From: Psychrobacillus sp. INOP01
GTDB taxonomy: Bacteria > Bacillota > Bacilli > Bacillales_A > Planococcaceae
NCBI RefSeq assembly: GCF_018140925.1
Contig: NZ_CP073315.1
Coordinates: 3,348,001-3,412,000, forward strand
Length of the DNA stretch: 64,000 nucleotides
Reading direction: 5' to 3'
Shown: piece by piece, positions 4,928-63,411 of the stretch
How positions within the stretch are numbered: the stretch's first letter is position 1
How the letters are laid out: each line of letters opens with the position of its first letter
Made by a program: the position numbers and the translations under genes
The notes under the pieces: model-generated
Told to the model about the DNA's origin: nothing
Databases searched by the model: none
Seen by the model: the letters and a program-made list of their open reading frames with translations, nothing else

Positions 4928-6113
<1,186 letters not shown>

Positions 6114-12888: not shown

Positions 12889-12920
12889 ACGACCATTCAA
12901 ACCGAATGGTCGTTTTTTTT
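12889..12920 (+). terminator. opp operon terminator
   Basis: The 10-bp perfect stem ACGACCATTC / GAATGGTCGT with a 5-nt loop is followed by eight T residues. Confidence 0.95.
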
Positions 12921-12945
12921 GAAAGAATTAGTATATAGAAATGTA

Positions 12946-13186
12946 GTGTGAACACTTGGTTCGTGGGACTTTAATGAAGGTATAGTACTACTGATTTCCG
13001 TTTCAGGTGGAGACAAAGGAACGATGGCTAAGAACGCCACCTCGTGTGGCAACGCCTTCGTGACCAACATCCTGTTGGCCTCCGCAGGGTGAGCGATGAA
13101 CCATCACCGACGCTCCGCGTTCGCTTGTGATGGTTCATCTGTCTCACTCATCCTGCTGGAGTCGCCACCTTCCACTACAATCAATA
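12946..13186 (+). repeat. A-type structured repeat, copy 1 (long-arm form)
   Basis: This non-coding repeat starts with a GTGAACACT..GGTTC flank shared with copies 3 and 4. The core runs from CTGATTTCCG to CACTACAATCAAT. Inside are a large hairpin (GATGAACCATCAC / GTGATGGTTCATC) and an enclosing GTGAG / CTCAC pair. This copy has an extra arm at about 13010-13080 (GACAAAGGAACG...CATCCTGTTGGCC) that copies 2 and 4 lack. TGATT and AATCA mark the ends. No ORF is evident. Confidence 0.85.
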
Positions 13187-13383
13187 TAGGGAGTAGTGCT
13201 TGACAATATGATTTAGCAAAGAAAATCAGCAAGCTAATAGAAAAAGTTAATGTAGTAATAATACCATCCTGTAATTGCTATTTTACAGGATAAAAGTATA
13301 AAAAAAATGCTCTGCAATAAGTGTTGATAGCATTTCATGTTATTAATCCCAATTAAATGAAGGATAAAGACTGTACATATATT

Positions 13384-13760
13384 TTTATAATAGTGGAGAT
13401 TTAGAGGTATAGTAAGTTTTTGCTTCATTAAGAAGGAGGGAGCGACCGAAATTGTATCTTCGAGACCCGCACGATGCGGGTCAGGCAGTCGTTGTGACAC
13501 GATGTCGCGTACTAAGACTGTCTGTCATCACCTCTATGATTAGGAAAGTATTTTTTCTCTAGTTATCCATAAAAGTACTTACCTGTTTCTAAAAGTTGTA
13601 GGAGGGAGACGAACAGACGAACGCCATAAAATTACCGCAAAAAGAGATGCTGGTCGTGACGCGGTCACGACCAGCATCTTTAGAAATTCACTCGGTAATA
13701 ATGTAGCGACCTGTCTGTTCAAAGCCCTTCGAAAACGATAGAAACAGGTTTTGACCTCTT
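13384..13760 (+). repeat. B-type structured repeat, copy 1 (with extra hairpin arms)
   Basis: The repeat begins at a TATAAT-containing segment shared with copy 2. It has a conserved GCGACCGAAATTGTATCTTCG block, ACCTGTTTCTA (13581-13591) exactly complementary to TAGAAACAGGT (13739-13749), and a perfect 16-bp hairpin at 13645-13679. At 13463-13539 it carries extra hairpins (GACCCGC/GCGGGTC and AGGCAGTC/GACTGTCT) absent from the other copies. It is joined to A copy 1 by a linker that is also conserved near 58550-58650. No coding potential is evident. Confidence 0.85.
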
Positions 13761-14003
13761 AAGGGTTATGCATATTTTTGCCCAGTTTTTTCTAAGATAA
13801 AGTATAAACTTTTTTGCTATTTTAATAAAAGGAAGCAAATAGCCATGCAGTATTTCCGAAAAGATTTAAAACATGTATTCTGGGTATATAAAGAGTAAAC
13901 TTAATATTTCTAGTAATCTAACTTATTTTGGTCTATTGGCACTTTTATTCATATGTATCGATTGTTAGAATGAAAGGACTTAGAGGAAAGGAATTTTTAA
14001 AAT
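13761..14003 (+). other. Intergenic leader upstream of the glycoside hydrolase gene
   Basis: This AT-rich stretch presumably holds the promoter of the next gene; I could not pick a convincing -35/-10 pair. The GAGGAAAGG-like site just before 14004 serves as the ribosome binding site. Confidence 0.4.
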
Positions 14004-16927: not shown

Positions 16928-16999
16928 GTAGGAAGTATAAAGTCTCATACCTTGAAAGCAAGGATCCAGCTATTATTACAGAGTAAAATCTATCTAATG

Positions 17000-17130
17000 C
17001 TGATTTCCATTTTAGGCGGACGCTTTCCGCGGGGTGAGCGATGAACCATCACCGTCGCTCAGGTGTTCGTTGTGATGGTTAATCTGTCTCACTCATCCCG
17101 CCGGAGACGTCGCCTTCCACTACAGTCAAT
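17000..17130 (+). repeat. A-type structured repeat, copy 2 (short-arm form)
   Basis: It runs from CTGATTTCC to CACTACAGTCAAT. The extra arm of copies 1 and 3 is replaced by GGACGCTTTCCGCGG. The GATGAACCATCAC hairpin and GTGAG/CTCAC pair are conserved. It is followed by the conserved GTAGTACTC...TGATTTAGC linker. Confidence 0.85.
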
Positions 17131-17254
17131 GAAGGATGTAGTACTCAAAAGTGATTTAGCACAGCCTATCAAAGGTATAAGATTATAGTGTCTAGTGCCA
17201 TTTGACAATCAACTATCGTTTCAATAGCGATTCAGGAGATATATTTATTTGTAT

Positions 17255-17530
17255 TTGTATAATAGTAGAAGCGCAAGGGATAGTAAGTGTTTAACCGATA
17301 AAGAAGGAGGGAGCGATAGAAATTGTATCTTCGGATGCTTCTTGTATGAATAAGAATCCATCTTTTTTTAGTTATCCAAAAAACACTTATCTTTTTTGCA
17401 GTTGTAGGAGTGCGATAGACAGACAAATGCCATAAGACTACCGAGAAAGGAGAGGTTTGTTTTAACGTTAGTCACGACTAGCTTCTCTAGAAATCAATCG
17501 ATAATAATATAGCAACGAGTCTTTCTTATG
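17255..17530 (+). repeat. B-type structured repeat, copy 2 (degenerate hairpin)
   Basis: It shares the TATAAT (17258-17263), the AAGAAGGAGGGAGCGA block and GAAATTGTATCTTCG with copy 1. The main hairpin (about 17450-17489) is decayed, with several mismatches. It ends about 45 bp before coiA, so it sits within or just upstream of the coiA promoter/leader. Confidence 0.8.
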
Positions 17531-33505: not shown

Positions 33506-34081
33506 ATGAATAAGAAAATGATACTCTCTCTAGTAGACAAAGTAATTAAAGTGGATAGAGGTGGTCCAGAATCGCGGGTTGGTAAGCTCTTATCAGCAGA
33601 GGATGATTACTTTACTCTTCTAACAGAAGAAGATGGCATTATTTATTATAATACACAGCATATTAAAAGTTTGACTCATAATTCAAAAAAACCAGTAGAA
33701 TTCACTCTTGAAATACCTAAGGATTTTAAGTATTTACAAGCAGATGATTTTAGAGGTATTTTGGATTGTCTAACACTACATTGGGTAAAAATTAACCGTG
33801 GTGGACCTGAAACACTAGAAGGCGTTCTGGACGTAGTTACAGATGATTTTGTAACAATCGTGGCGAACGAAGAAATAATCCGAGTTGCTTTATTCCATAT
33901 TCGTAATATCAGCTATGGAGCAAAGATTGAAAAAACTAAAGAAGACAAAGGTAAAAATGATAAAGAAGACAAAGGTAAAAATGATAAAGAAGACAAAGGT
34001 AAAAATGATAAAGAAGACAAAGGTAAAAATGATAAAGAAGAAAATAAAAAAGATTCAAATAATCAAGAAAAAGAAAAGTAA
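33506..34081 (+). CDS. Spore coat protein CotB-like, paralogue 1
   Basis: This 191-aa protein has two copies of the CotB SH3-like module: about 8-55 (VIKVDRGGPESRVGKLLSAEDDY...YNTQHIKSL) and about 85-135 (WVKINRGGPETLEGVLDV...FHIRNIS). A hydrophilic tail with four KEDKGKND repeats follows. The RGGPES motif and HIKS ending are diagnostic of CotB. It is outer coat by family. The Ser/Lys tail of B. subtilis CotB is replaced by an Asp/Lys repeat tail. AAAGGAGG precedes ATG. Confidence 0.9.
   Translation: MNKKMILSLVDKVIKVDRGGPESRVGKLLSAEDDYFTLLTEEDGIIYYNTQHIKSLTHNSKKPVEFTLEIPKDFKYLQADDFRGILDCLTLHWVKINRGGPETLEGVLDVVTDDFVTIVANEEIIRVALFHIRNISYGAKIEKTKEDKGKNDKEDKGKNDKEDKGKNDKEDKGKNDKEENKKDSNNQEKEK
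33941..34036 (+). repeat. Four perfect 24-bp tandem repeats in the CotB-like gene
   Basis: Four tandem units of GAAGACAAAGGTAAAAATGATAAA encode KEDKGKND. The period is a multiple of three, so copy changes keep the frame. Confidence 0.95.
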
Positions 34082-34163: not shown

Positions 34164-35873
34164 ATGCAGAAACAAAACTTCGAAAATGTATTATATGCCA
34201 ATGAAAACATGAATATAGGATTGTATTTAACAAAAAATCAATTTGTTGAAGGTATCTTATTAGACGTTCAAAATAATCATATTGTTTTGGAAGTGAATGA
34301 AAATATTGTCTATATAGCAATTCATCAAATACAAGCACTTTCTAAGAATGCAAAAGATCTACGTATGGCAAAGGAATCCAGTCTACATCTAGTTAGAAAT
34401 GATTTGACAGATGTATTAATTGCATTAAGATATCACTGGGTTACTATAAATAAATTTAGTAATCCTACTCTTTTTGGTATATTAAGCAGTATCTTCGAGG
34501 ATCATATTATCCTAATCAATAAAAAAGAGTTATTTTATATACCTATTTCACATATTACGGATATTTCTAGCGAAATATCTAAAAGTGACCACTACTTTTT
34601 AAACAAAAAGGAACAACGTACTATCCAAAAATTATATAGGATGCGTATTAGCAAAGAATCTATTGAAGTTAAAGATGATCATTTGATTGGGATACAGGAC
34701 AGAATTACATCACCGGACATTGGAATTATTGCAGATTGGAACGATGCTATAAATAAGGGAAAAGCTGACCAAAGTACAGTTTCTTCGCTATTGGAAGAGA
34801 AAGCCGATATTTCAGTTAGTGATCAGGAACTAGCTGCAATAGATGATGGTATTCATACGGAAGTAATGGAACCTATAAATACGTATGCAATAGAAGAAAG
34901 CGTATTTTCTTCTCAAATGGAAGAGACGCTAGAAAGTAAAAGCTTGGATATAGCAGCAGCGGCTGCCAATATTTTAGTAAGTGAAGAGAAATTATCCACA
35001 ATACATGATGGTGTTCATAAAGAAGTTCCGGAACCGATAAATACGGATACATTAGAGGAAAACGAATTTTATCTTAAATTGAAAGAGAAGCTAGAAAGTA
35101 TAAGTTTGAATCTAGCGGCAGCGGCTGCCAATAATTTAGGTAGTGAAGAGAAATCATCCCCAATAGTTGATGGTGTTCATACAGAAGTAACGGAACCGAT
35201 AAACACCGATGAGTTGGAGGAAAATACGTTTTCTCCTCAACTAGAAGATCAAATAATAAAAGAACAAACTAATGAGTTTTCCGATGAACAACTTAACGTT
35301 CCCGAAAATCGTTTGGAGATGAAGGGAAAAGATATACTTTTAACGGCTTGGAGTACTATGAATAGCGATCAATCTACAGTTGCACTACCAAAGAAAGCTG
35401 ATTCGAAAAGGAAACATGCAATCCCAATCGAAAATACAATGTTGACTAGCAGTAACACTGGGCAACAAACATCTCTTTCAAATCAAACAAACGAAAATTC
35501 TGATCGCCATGACAAACTCGATGTCTTAGATAAAATATCGGAGACATCAGAAAAAAAAAAACAAGTATTAACTGCAAATGTGCTGAGTAGAAAAGAAGTA
35601 AATGAAATGCTGGAGCAGCAATACTTTGCATTGATGAATTACGCTGCAGTACAAATTTCAAATACGATAAATTTTAAACAAACAGATAACAAATCATACT
35701 TTCACCCAAGGGTTGAAGGAAGTGAATATCGTCCAGATAAAATTAGACGGTTTGAAATGAATAGTGGTTATCAATTTTATGATTCCAAACAAGACACAGC
35801 TGCATTAGAAAAACAGTATATTTCGTTAATGAGACATGCAACAGCAATGTACCGCAAACTAAGGAAAACTTAG
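34164..35873 (+). CDS. CotB-like protein with internal repeats, paralogue 2
   Basis: This 569-aa protein has two divergent CotB modules in its first about 140 residues (MNIGLYLTKNQFVEGILLDVQ...IHQIQAL; YHWVTINKFSNPTLFGILSS...ISHITDIS). The RGGPE motif is lost. A 54-residue unit (about 218-363) is repeated nearly three times, with core DGVHTEV.EPINT and a SL..AAAAAN ending. The C-terminal part is hydrophilic, with two similar EQQYFALMNYAA / EKQYISLMRHAT segments. It appears specialised for this lineage. AAAGGGAGG precedes ATG. Confidence 0.8.
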   Translation: MQKQNFENVLYANENMNIGLYLTKNQFVEGILLDVQNNHIVLEVNENIVYIAIHQIQALSKNAKDLRMAKESSLHLVRNDLTDVLIALRYHWVTINKFSNPTLFGILSSIFEDHIILINKKELFYIPISHITDISSEISKSDHYFLNKKEQRTIQKLYRMRISKESIEVKDDHLIGIQDRITSPDIGIIADWNDAINKGKADQSTVSSLLEEKADISVSDQELAAIDDGIHTEVMEPINTYAIEESVFSSQMEETLESKSLDIAAAAANILVSEEKLSTIHDGVHKEVPEPINTDTLEENEFYLKLKEKLESISLNLAAAAANNLGSEEKSSPIVDGVHTEVTEPINTDELEENTFSPQLEDQIIKEQTNEFSDEQLNVPENRLEMKGKDILLTAWSTMNSDQSTVALPKKADSKRKHAIPIENTMLTSSNTGQQTSLSNQTNENSDRHDKLDVLDKISETSEKKKQVLTANVLSRKEVNEMLEQQYFALMNYAAVQISNTINFKQTDNKSYFHPRVEGSEYRPDKIRRFEMNSGYQFYDSKQDTAALEKQYISLMRHATAMYRKLRKT

Positions 35874-41293: not shown

Positions 41294-41320
41294 TAGAATA
41301 AAATTATATAAAAATGGCCC

Positions 41321-41558
41321 GTGCATACTGGGTTCATGATACTTTAAAGAATGAATAATACTAGTGATTTCCGTTACAGGCGGAGACAAAGGAACGATGG
41401 CTAAGTACGTCACCACGCGAGCGCAACGCCTTCGTGACCACATCCTGTTGGCCTCCGCGGGGTGAGCGATGAACCATCACCGTCGCTGACGCGTCGTTTG
41501 TGATGTTTCATCTGTCTCACTCATCCCGCCGGAGTCGTCACCTTTCACTACAATCAAT
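41321..41558 (+). repeat. A-type structured repeat, copy 3 (long-arm form)
   Basis: It has the same GTG.A.ACTGGGTTCAT flank, core from GTGATTTCCG to CACTACAATCAATTA, and the long arm GACAAAGGAACGATGGCTAAG...CATCCTGTTGGCC as copy 1. Downstream the linker continues to CATCTGTAATCGCTG (about 41605-41625), but no B element follows. It lies in a convergent gap. Confidence 0.85.
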
Positions 41559-41775
41559 TAGTGTGTAGTACTCCATTATAAGATTGGTCCAATTTTACTT
41601 AGTGAAAACATCATCTGTAATCGCTGTTGAATTAGAAATGCTATTATCCAATGATAGATGCAGACAGTAAAATTTCTTTGTACTAGAGCATATTTCAACA
41701 TTACTTATTTCTATATACAATAGGAATTAGTAAATACTATTGTTTTCAATTATCCATTTACTTCAAGTGGACATT

Positions 41776-41908
41776 GTTGATTGAAGCGCGGAGTGGCGAC
41801 TCCAGTGGGAACAGCACGAGCTGAAGAACCTAGACTGAGCGAGGCGAGGGAAGCGGCTGAGGCCATGCCCACGCCCACGGAAAGCGTCCGACCGGAGTAG
41901 AAATCAAC
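41776..41908 (-). repeat. C-type repeat, copy 1 (A-related ends, different interior)
   Basis: Terminal inverted repeats GTTGATT / AATCAAC bound the element. Read on the minus strand it opens GATTTCTACTCCGGTCGGACGCTTTCCG, like the A family, but the interior is CCTCAGCCGCTTCCCTCGCC... and it ends GTTCCCACTGGAGTCGCC. It is non-coding and GC-richer than its surroundings. I recall similar sequences scattered in Bacillaceae genomes. Confidence 0.75.
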
Positions 41909-41956
41909 GGCATATTTATGTCTTAAAGGGGTTGGCGTCTTTTTGCCCGATTTTTC

Positions 41957-42691
41957 TTACTCCCCAGATTTTTTAAATCCTGCTTTTATAGCTTCCTGCT
42001 CGTTACAGAACCATTCTTCGGGATTTGTTTGTTCATAATATTTTCCACTAGGGATATGGTAAATTTTCTTGCCTTGTCGATTAATATTGCCCTTGATGAT
42101 ACATTTTCCGGATGTTTGTATTTCTACCTTAGCGCTGTTATCGGAGATGACCGCATCATCGAATCCTCGATTAGTGACGTAATCTTCTGTCTCCCATACG
42201 CCAATATTTTTCTTTTCAGCTTTTTCGGAAGCTTCCTCGAAATCGTCTAAATACCGTATGTTTGGAGGGAAAATATATGCAACACGTGCCATCCCCTCTT
42301 CGAGTAACGTCTTTTGAACGCTCTGGCCATCCACATAAATATACGCAAGCATTCTGCCATAGTCGTCTAAGCGATTTCCTACATCAAACTCAATCGTTAC
42401 ATCCCCACTATTTAATAATTCCTTGTTCCGTTGTTTCGCTTCTTCCCCAAATGGTTGCTTTCCTAATGTGTGATGGTTTATTTCCGGTGTGTCTATTAGC
42501 AAGTATCGAACTTTTTCTATGTTTCCATTATACTTAACTTTAATAGTATCACCGTCAGTAACCTCAACTACTTTTACTGGAATTTGTTTGGTACTACCAC
42601 TTGTTTGAATGACACTGTTAGTGGAATTTTCTTCACAGCCATATAGTAAGCAAAAAAACAGACCACCTATACATACAAAAAACTTTTTCAT
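41957..42691 (-). CDS. Thermonuclease-like lipoprotein (SNase domain)
   Basis: This 244-aa protein has an N-terminal lipoprotein signal (lipobox near LLYGC, Cys about 19). An SNase domain (about 37-170) carries DGDTIKV, the catalytic-side RYLLIDTPE, and RLDDYGRMLAYIYVDG, EEGMARV. A short C-terminal module, IKGNINRQGKKIYHIPSGKYYEQ...WFCNEQEAIKAGFKKS, resembles the domain added to many Bacillales nucleases. It cleaves DNA or RNA at the cell surface by family. Confidence 0.92.
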   Translation of the reverse strand: MKKFFVCIGGLFFCLLYGCEENSTNSVIQTSGSTKQIPVKVVEVTDGDTIKVKYNGNIEKVRYLLIDTPEINHHTLGKQPFGEEAKQRNKELLNSGDVTIEFDVGNRLDDYGRMLAYIYVDGQSVQKTLLEEGMARVAYIFPPNIRYLDDFEEASEKAEKKNIGVWETEDYVTNRGFDDAVISDNSAKVEIQTSGKCIIKGNINRQGKKIYHIPSGKYYEQTNPEEWFCNEQEAIKAGFKKSGE

Positions 42692-50783: not shown

Positions 50784-50995
50784 TTACGCTCCATGCGGGC
50801 CCTTTAAGCGGGCACGGCTTAATCTCCTCGTACCAACAGGATGTTGGTCGCAAAGGCGTTGCCACACGATGCACCTAATCTTTGTCCCCTGAATGCGTTC
50901 CTGCGGGGCTTTCAGCTCGTGTACCTGACGCTTCGCTTTCGATGCAGAAAACATTTGCTGTTCCCACTTGAGTCGATGCCTTGAGCTCCAATCAA
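50784..50995 (+). repeat. C-type repeat, copy 2 (mosaic with an A-type module)
   Basis: The 3' end TGTTCCCACTTGAGTCGATG...CCAATCAA matches C copy 1 in opposite orientation. The middle holds, in reverse, the CGTGTGGCAACGCC...CCAACATCCTGTTGG module of A copies 1 and 3. It opens with hairpins such as GCGGGCCC / CTTTAAGCGGGC. No ORF is convincing. Confidence 0.7.
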
Positions 50996-58341: not shown

Positions 58342-58365
58342 TAAAGGAAAGTTTATAAAAATAGA

Positions 58366-58542
58366 GCGTGAACACTGGGTTCATAGTCCTTTAAAGAATT
58401 AAACGATACCGCTGATTTCCGTTTCAGGCTGGCGCTTTCCGCGGGGTGAGCGATGAACGATCACCGCCGCTTCGCGTTCGTTGTGATGTTACATCAGTCT
58501 CACTCATCCCGCCGGAGTCGACGATCTCCACTACAATCAATT
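58366..58542 (+). repeat. A-type structured repeat, copy 4 (short-arm form)
   Basis: The same GTGAACACTGGGTTCAT flank and core to CACTACAATCAATT as copies 1 and 3, but with the short arm GGCGCTTTCCGCGGGG. The linker TAGATTTAGCAAAG...CATCCTGTAATCGCTG leads directly into B copy 3. Confidence 0.85.
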
Positions 58543-58641
58543 ATGTGAGTAAATACAAGAATTAGATTTAGCAAAGCCACACTACTTAGCGTTTTAGATG
58601 ATAGGAAGGTGTAGTGAATGTATTATCATCCTGTAATCGCT

Positions 58642-58900
58642 GAAGCGACCAAAAATGTATCTTCGGGCGCTTATTCAATTAATAGGAAAGCATCTTTTCC
58701 CTAGTTATCCAAAAAGGCACTAACCTGTTTCTAAAAGTTGTAGGAGAGCGACGGAAAGATAAACTCCATAAGATTACCGAAAGAAGAGAGGCTGGTCGTG
58801 ACGATAGTCACGACCAGCCTCTTCCTCAATTAAACCTGTAATAATATAGCAACCAGTCTATCCAAAGCACTTCGGAAAAAGATAGAAACAGGTTTTGAAC
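58642..58900 (+). repeat. B-type structured repeat, copy 3 (best preserved)
   Basis: It begins GAAGCGACC with TGTATCTTCGGGCGC. ACCTGTTTCTA (58723-58733) is exactly complementary to TAGAAACAGGT (58883-58893). Between them is a perfect 16-bp hairpin at 58787-58822 with a GATA loop. No coding potential is evident. Confidence 0.88.
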
Positions 58901-58944
58901 TTAAAAGGCGTACTACGCTTTTCTTAATCATAGTTTTAAATCAA

Positions 58945-62462: not shown

Positions 62463-62499
62463 GAAACTTCGAGCCTTGCAAATGGGATCGAAGTTTTTA
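62463..62499 (+). terminator. marR terminator
   Basis: AAACTTCGA / TCGAAGTTT stem with T-tail. Confidence 0.85.
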
Positions 62500-62546
62500 T
62501 TTATTCTTATAGCAAAATAAGTGTCTATCCAATAAAGAAAAAGAGA

Positions 62547-62760
62547 TGCGCCCGAAATTGTATTTTCGGGTGCTTATTATATGAGAGAAAAATCGCTTCT
62601 CTAATTATCCAAGAATGCACTAACCTGATTCTAAAAGTTTTAGACGGGCGACGGGCAGTAAAATCCCATAAGATAACCGAAAAAAGAGAGGCAGGTCGTG
62701 ACGTCAGTCACGACCTGCCTCTCAAAAAAATAAGTCGGTAATAAAAATCTGTCTTTAAAG
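62547..62760 (+). repeat. B-type structured repeat, copy 4 (no A element)
   Basis: GCGCCCGAAA / TTTTCGGGTGC forms a 5' hairpin. CTAACCTGATTCTAAAAG and the 16-bp hairpin at 62687-62722 (loop GTCA) are conserved. The 3' TAGAAACAGGT partner is lost, so this copy is truncated at its 3' end. It ends just before the lipoprotein gene stop. Confidence 0.82.
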
Positions 62761-62775
62761 GGTCTTGATCTTTTC

Positions 62776-63411
62776 TTATTTCGCTTTAATTGTTTCTGCC
62801 ATCTGTACAAATGTTTCGAGGGCAGGAGAATCAACTGTGTCGAATACTGTTAGTTTAACAATGAGTCCTTCTCGTTCAAACACATAACCTGAAACCTTAC
62901 CTTCAGGTGTATCAATCTGATGAGAGGAAGTATTTTCTATAAAATCTTTAGTAGGAATTAGGTTTTTATCTTTAATTTCAGTAACTGTTGCAGATTCATT
63001 GGATGCTTGTAAAGTAGCAATTAAATTTTCTTTAATTACTTCGATAGTTGCTTCATCTGCAGAGAAAGTTTCGATTCGCATTGACTGTAAATCGTTGTTT
63101 AGGTTGAATAACAAGTCTTTGTTAGGTTCTTCGCCAGTTAACTCATAGCCTTCCATAACAGTGATGGAATAGTTTTGGCTATCACTTTCCGTAGTAGTTC
63201 CTTCTAATACTTTTTCAGGAGAAGTAGTGGATTGTGATGCATCTGTTTCTGCTTCATTATTCTCCGTTTCCTCCGGAGAAGTAGTTTGTTCCGTATTTTC
63301 ATTCCCTGTTACTTGGGTCTCATCCTGATCCTCGGTTGCTGTGCTTGTACCACAAGCCGCGAGAAGAACTGTTAGTAATAGAATAGAAAGCAATGTGTAA
63401 ATTTTTTTCAT
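62776..63411 (-). CDS. Hypothetical lipoprotein
   Basis: This 211-aa protein has signal peptide and lipobox LAAC (Cys about 20). A long Thr/Glu/Asn/Ser-rich linker (about 23-80) is followed by a compact C-terminal domain (about 83-211) of PsbP/DUF-like appearance, ending METIKAK-like. I do not recognise the family with confidence. AAAAGGAG precedes ATG 63411. Confidence 0.8.
   Translation of the reverse strand: MKKIYTLLSILLLTVLLAACGTSTATEDQDETQVTGNENTEQTTSPEETENNEAETDASQSTTSPEKVLEGTTTESDSQNYSITVMEGYELTGEEPNKDLLFNLNNDLQSMRIETFSADEATIEVIKENLIATLQASNESATVTEIKDKNLIPTKDFIENTSSHQIDTPEGKVSGYVFEREGLIVKLTVFDTVDSPALETFVQMAETIKAK

Follow-up and report, generated by a model that had tools for sequence, protein, structure and literature searches.

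The 64-kb window, by which we mean the whole stretch of DNA analysed, comes from Psychrobacillus, a genus of soil bacteria, and holds five copies of a repeated non-coding element in its intergenic gaps, the first of them 3' of oppF (gene name from the first-pass annotation). Within the window, nhmmer searches with the A unit of this copy (12946-13215) as query return 41321-41585, 17023-17154 and 58367-58552 (E-values of 1.3e-22 or better), and the B unit (13401-13759) returns 58671-58901, 17276-17528 and 62584-62754 (1.7e-21 or better). All of these matches lie on the plus strand and they are far beyond chance, so the five like-oriented repeats claimed from the letters alone are real. Refining the limits from the junctions with host sequence gave elements wider than the A and B units first delimited, and these, with their parts, are as follows:

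12921..13794, plus strand: element 1, full length, with two Bacillaceae-1 inserts, 3' of oppF
13012..13078, plus strand: RF01690 Bacillaceae-1 insert in the A hairpin of element 1 (Rfam, 74.4 bits; gathering score 35)
13431..13757, plus strand: B module of element 1, a long hairpin with conserved motifs, a palindromic apex and one insert
13466..13532, minus strand: RF01690 Bacillaceae-1 insert, antisense, in the B arm of element 1 (Rfam, 48.9 bits)
16928..17529, plus strand: element 2, composite; final hairpin absent, CTTAT end retained
41295..41959, plus strand: element 3, with leader, A hairpin with Bacillaceae-1 insert, linker, a non-B hairpin repeat and the standard 3' end
41385..41451, plus strand: RF01690 Bacillaceae-1 insert of element 3 (Rfam, 41.1 bits)
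41772..41928, minus strand: A-core-type hairpin repeat, in reverse orientation, replacing B in element 3 (51 bits)
58343..58926, plus strand: element 4, composite, flanked by convergent genes
62499..62779, plus strand: element 5, B module and 3' end, 5' end unrecognisable, flanked by convergent genes

Element 1 begins directly behind the host terminator, whose T-run has its last base at 12920, and finishes in ..GTTTTTTCTA; the standard 3' end of element 3 reads ..GCCCGATTTTTCTTA. The gap corresponding to element 2 is empty in genome G004 (stretch L183), and the site of element 4 is empty in genome G007 (stretch L196). The first-pass annotation had placed each copy downstream of a plus-strand gene and its terminator and had seen no plausible reading frame in any of them. 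Sequence and open reading frames agree with the placement (terminator distance measured for four of the five); the longest complete ORFs within the five elements are 88, 64, 42, 39 and 31 aa. Its account of the parts needed revision. The copy at 41.3 kb, taken for an A unit alone, is a full-length element that has kept its 3' end and carries another hairpin instead of B, while the copy at 62.5 kb, taken for B alone, has wider limits and comprises B and the 3' end, with a 5' end that cannot be recognised. The A-linker-B order is found, but the element is better described as a pair of constant ends with exchangeable hairpins between them.

Free A-core-type hairpin repeats are also seen in the window, at 41772-41928 (minus strand) and 50793-50995, with the pattern TTGATTG..GGCGACTCC..GGAAATCAA. 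Elsewhere it contains a T-box leader (RF00230, 6148-6364, minus strand, 147 bits) upstream of the minus-strand ORF 5103-6095, three 162-nt direct repeats at 34803-35288 inside ORF 34164-35873, and 24-nt repeats at 33930-34049 inside ORF 33506-34081.

The ends of the element were defined from an alignment of 28 composites together with the pair L048/L060, which are 96.7% identical in B. In its short form the 5' end consists of AAAAGATAAGAAAGTATATAAAAATG and a hairpin; the consensus reads AAAAGAT(T)AAGAAAGTATATAAAAATG and then runs into a GTCCCGTGAAC..GTTCATGGGAC-type hairpin. The 3' consensus comprises CTTAAAGGA, a terminator-like hairpin and then TTTTTCTTAT, with the hairpin ∼9-10 nt before the element end as judged from consensus distances. 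Both consensus ends contain a hairpin; the one at the 5' end shows weak covariation, with 34 compensatory cells vs 22 in shuffles, and the consensus fold predicted for the 3' end alignment, in which two variants are mixed, is a pairing other than the 3' hairpin. A DDE-type MITE would have terminal inverted repeats and a target duplication; here, by eye, the two ends have no more than ATAAGAAA in common in inverted orientation, and there is no clear target duplication.

Between the ends lie the A hairpin, a linker and the B hairpin (∼170 nt), in that order. The inner part of the A hairpin occurs by eye in at least three versions, one of which is Bacillaceae-1. Pairing in B is conserved, with 354 compensatory cells among 115 copies vs 112-135 in five shuffles (which ignore relatedness), and the B motifs are kept between diverged copies and between species. 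The modular nature of the interior is clear from L168 (8036-7993), which consists of leader, a different hairpin repeat and 3' end, and from L053, in which A is deleted and the leader retained. The latter had seemed 5'-truncated in the manner of LINEs, but the leader is present and it is the interior that has been lost. Seven B copies (L156, L164, L169, L170, L175, L181 and L065) form a subfamily with an extra hairpin, AAAGTGAAACTTCA..TTACGGGCAGTTATC.., at position ∼125-132 of the B model. The leader is missing from 22 of 68 B copies at the score used, which counts against reading the family as mobile elements.

One of the exchangeable parts is already known. RF01690 is the sole Rfam family to reach its gathering score inside the window elements, with three matches, two on the plus strand in A arms and one antisense; at that score it occurs in two of the five window elements and in two of seven further stretches (L055, 2592-2659; L170, 3211-3316), and 8 of the 69 elements have the Bacillaceae-1 motif in their stretches. 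A permissive Rfam scan of one clean copy (L061) gave only matches far below the gathering scores of their families. The first-pass annotation had allowed that Rfam might already describe the family, and this is so for a part: RF01690, which spans 67 nt of a 0.6–0.9 kb element, covers an optional insert and not the element as a whole. The Bacillaceae-1 RNA of Rfam is identical with this insert, found in either orientation, while the element itself is much longer. Since Bacillaceae-1 turns up as one of the exchangeable inserts, and in either orientation, it is questionable whether it should be read as an sRNA gene; our data suggest that, at least here, this 'RNA gene' is a hairpin module that can be swapped in and out of mobile repeats.

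It had been allowed that only the copies in the window exist, yet there are many dozens. Searching the whole genome, a single contig of 4.30 Mb, for DNA similar to element 1 gave at least 99 matches in at least 40 clusters, six reverse self-palindromic rows of the 99 (hand count) being omitted from the clustering. When as many as two mismatches are allowed, an 18-base B motif matches this genome 63 times vs 4 for the reversed motif, and a B profile run on stretches of the chromosome gives 75 matches, merged into 69 elements, to which a leader-only search adds 16 loci, part of them with B and part without. All copy numbers are lower bounds, and the B, A and leader profiles were derived from family copies themselves. 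The median identity of paralogues is 74% and only 5 of 1475 pairs exceed 90%, so most copies are old, which counts against the mobile-element reading as far as present activity is concerned.

When one full copy was searched against 60 other genomes (E 1e-5), 18 of 18 congeners matched, as did one of 18 other members of the taxonomic family; in several congeners, coverage among the matches listed is limited to the A-core hairpin. Counts of the B motif range from 2 in G012 and 6 in G003 to 40 in G015, 67 in G004 and 102 in G010. An exact-pattern scan of an 84,980-species collection returned 54 stretches, with the B module in all 37 from Psychrobacillus and in none of the 17 from other taxa. The B module is apparently found only in Psychrobacillus, although more diverged relatives may have escaped these sequence searches. 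Within the literature collection searched there was no paper on transposable elements or repeats of Psychrobacillus. The modular non-coding elements form a new family, apparently limited to the genus and with an address that is rarely seen, and they explain many long intergenic gaps in the annotation of Psychrobacillus.

This address lies directly behind intrinsic terminators. For 43 of 58 leader 5' ends, taken from this genome and from congener blocks, an upstream terminator can be recognised, and its T-run ends 1–12 nt before the element in 42; the remainder are 15 ends with no terminator call and one 29 nt away. In the later leader-only set a T-run lies within 12 nt upstream in 10 of 16. 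By comparison, a T-run lies within 12 nt of 100 of 1940 control positions (5%) from 97 element-free 3' gaps, and adjacency at random positions is 2.75%. Where copies stand in tandem, the second starts behind the terminator of the previous one. A position directly after an intrinsic terminator and in the same orientation, as taken by group IIC introns, is what is found.

Comparison with congeners reveals the same sites in both states. The gap g12-g13 is filled here and empty in G004, and g49-g50 is filled here and empty in G007, with the same host terminator in each case and no duplication seen, while g44-g45 and g14-g15 are filled in G004 and empty here, the host terminator again being the same in both states. 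At g44-g45 in G004, T-runs flank both sides, so target duplication is possible there, a point that we count against our interpretation; and since three other species have a different repeat in this gap, the empty state of our genome may be derived. That other repeat (AGCTCC.GCG..GCGCTT..TTTTTT, in G008, G005 and G014) lies inside the T-run of the same terminator, and other repeat families may share the terminator address. That a site can be occupied in one species and vacant in another supports mobility, and decayed remnants at other orthologous sites indicate that copies have also been inherited and lost. Together these observations suggest that the elements jump exactly behind the stop signals of genes, pointing the same way, although no jumping gene was found in them.

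The elements are also polar with respect to replication. With the origin placed at 2.144 Mb by dnaA and the termini assumed to lie opposite, 63 of the 69 merged copies (p 0.001) and 56 of the 63 B motif matches (p 0.01) are leading-strand oriented. This polarity is repeated in two other species, with 95 of the best 100 of 102 B motif matches leading in G010 and 38 of the best 42 of 67 in G004; in G003 it is five of six. Taken alone the excess in our own genome is modest, since 280 of the 367 ORFs that reach 120 aa in the stretches read are also leading. Gene context, based on simple ORF calls at this cut-off, was scored for 67 elements, two of the 69 at stretch edges being omitted: 34 lie between convergent genes, 33 between tandem genes and none between divergent genes, against 47 divergent among 300 background gene pairs, element sites themselves included. 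Between convergent genes, 30 of 34 copies follow the leading-strand gene (p = 3e-6), and 28 of the 33 tandem cases run with the direction of the genes. The other five tandem cases, which run against it, count against our interpretation, as do the three of 69 copies that would be divergent with the ORF cut-off lowered to 80 aa, and the extra-hairpin subfamily, which is not polar: four of its seven members are lagging, making up four of the six lagging copies in all, while 60 of the other 62 copies are leading. Unlike B, the A-core-only matches in G010 are mixed, with five leading and four lagging among nine listed (hand count). A direct, KOPS-like replication signal was considered as the sole cause of the polarity and is ruled out by the lagging copies, four of six of which (five with laxer gene calls) lie behind a lagging-strand gene of the same direction; the leading-strand preference between convergent genes persists after this rejection. 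Orientation is therefore not random genome-wide, as the first-pass annotation had conceded it might be, most copies following the upstream gene. Its broader suggestion, that a structured element is placed consistently because it is mobile or under selection, is supported by the many copies, their non-random orientation and the filled and empty sites between species.

The interpretation that we consider narrowly probable is that of a Psychrobacillus family of non-autonomous, hairpin-rich, end-defined mobile elements of ∼0.3–0.9 kb that insert into single-stranded terminator DNA. We infer that a trans-acting factor would recognise the two constant ends, the 5' leader with its hairpin and the 3' terminator-like hairpin, and that insertion would take place where the T-run of an intrinsic terminator ends, immediately on its 3' side, in DNA that is single-stranded and belongs mainly to the lagging-strand template. 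The three rules that the copies obey (behind the T-run, with transcription, and with the leading strand if genes converge) fit insertion into single-stranded lagging-template terminator DNA, and one such step would account for where the elements sit relative to terminators, for their sharing the orientation of the upstream gene and for the leading preference between convergent genes. Group IIC introns, which use this address too, are reported to favour the template of lagging-strand synthesis (PMC8919778), and this speaks for the interpretation. If only the ends matter, the interior would be free to change, its hairpin modules exchanging or dropping out, and tandem copies would follow because the terminator-like 3' end of each copy would itself be a new landing site. 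As a guess, the T-run could be recognised through base pairing with the A-run that adjoins the left hairpin, which would then act as a guide. More tentatively, and with some doubt, the family might represent a new class of coding-free, end-defined element that homes to single-stranded lagging-template terminator DNA, the address of group IIC introns, without intron retrohoming and acts as a modular carrier of hairpin RNAs such as Bacillaceae-1.

Against this stands that no transposase or reverse transcriptase (RT) tied to the family was found, nor was an autonomous copy seen in the 16 extra leader loci, where modules and ends, not proteins, were sought over 900 nt downstream. Two enzymes of the genus were weighed as mobilisers, and neither shows a convincing link. 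Matches to Y1_Tnp occur in 18 of 19 genomes, as a single match in 11, and most of the open frames are 192–290 aa long, a size and copy number that would suit RAYTs; passages of PMC6006769 describe Y1 transposases as acting on single-stranded DNA hairpins, and a full A-B copy lies ∼1.2 kb from a Y1 gene in L242, with an A-core hairpin near another in L235. That the elements are REPIN-like and mobilised by such a gene nevertheless seems quite unlikely: 18 of 20 stretches around Y1 genes are without an A or B match, so that the elements do not flank the RAYT gene as they do in REPIN/RAYT systems, and it is other palindromes, of the GTGCCTGGCACC type, that adjoin some Y1 genes. By eye, some of the RAYT-like genes (L216-L223, L232) stand beside such palindromes and a response-regulator-like gene. 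The other candidate is a group IIC-type RT, which would insert a copy of the element RNA behind terminators in trans, priming at the replication fork. Group II introns do occur in the genus, all eight RT loci tested matching group II families in Rfam, and IIC introns use the same address and prefer the lagging template (PMC8919778, PMC4424553); the terminator-like 3' hairpin would make a defined RNA 3' end plausible, and G010 is highest among the genomes counted in both RT matches (18) and B motifs (102). While those eight loci served as a working positive control, three Rfam scans of the element found none of the group II ribozyme domains (RF00029, group-II-D1D4). The five window elements encode no intron RT, their longest complete ORF being 88 aa, and ORFs overlapping the B modules of this genome reach 133 aa, the one of that size extending past the element. 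Nor do RT numbers overall track element numbers (RT matches to B motifs of 1 to 63 here, 1 to 67 in G004 and 4 to 2 in G012), and the loss of the interior with both ends kept in L053 and L168 is unlike 5'-truncated retrocopies. We regard such a retroelement as unlikely.

It also seems rather improbable that the copies are selected 3'-end elements, structured RNAs or extra terminators serving transcript ending, insulation or stability and spread mainly by gene conversion. This would suit the way they follow the direction of transcription and avoid divergent gaps, their terminator-like end hairpin, and the conservation of B pairing and motifs across diverged copies and species. It would not predict that the leading strand is favoured where genes converge; moreover, the host genes already have terminators, and orthologous sites in close relatives are empty or hold decayed remnants. 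An excess of G-U over A-C mismatches (331 vs 183) might have been offered as proof of RNA, but it carries no strand signal and is uninformative, since unpaired sites have the same bias of C-to-T over G-to-A.

Terminators are safe harbours, where a landing element harms no gene. If insertion into single-stranded terminator DNA is indeed how the family spreads, it would be a second, unrelated family with the address and polarity of group IIC introns, implying that the niche selects the target, and it would offer a natural system for the coupling of insertion to replication and terminator structure.

Several known systems invite comparison. BOX elements of pneumococcus and bcr elements of the Bacillus cereus group are modular, structured, intergenic, multicopy and limited to a species group, and the present family resembles them in these respects; to our knowledge terminator adjacency and replichore polarity are no part of their features. 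We know of group IIC introns as users of the niche behind terminators. The layout of the ends is like that of IS200/IS605 elements such as IS608. With these and their non-autonomous relatives the family may share hairpins near both ends and a lack of target duplication, its lagging-template polarity is like theirs (lagging-template use being described in PMC6006769), and it differs in its T-run target, its longer modular interior and the lack of a transposase among our findings. Group IIC (bacterial class C) introns insert immediately 3' of rho-independent terminators, according to passages of PMC8919778 and PMC4424553, and the former also describes a preference for the template of lagging-strand synthesis. 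The present elements have other ends (AAAAGATAAG.. / ..TTTTTCTTAT), no group II domains by Rfam and no RT-sized ORF, while address and polarity are common to both.
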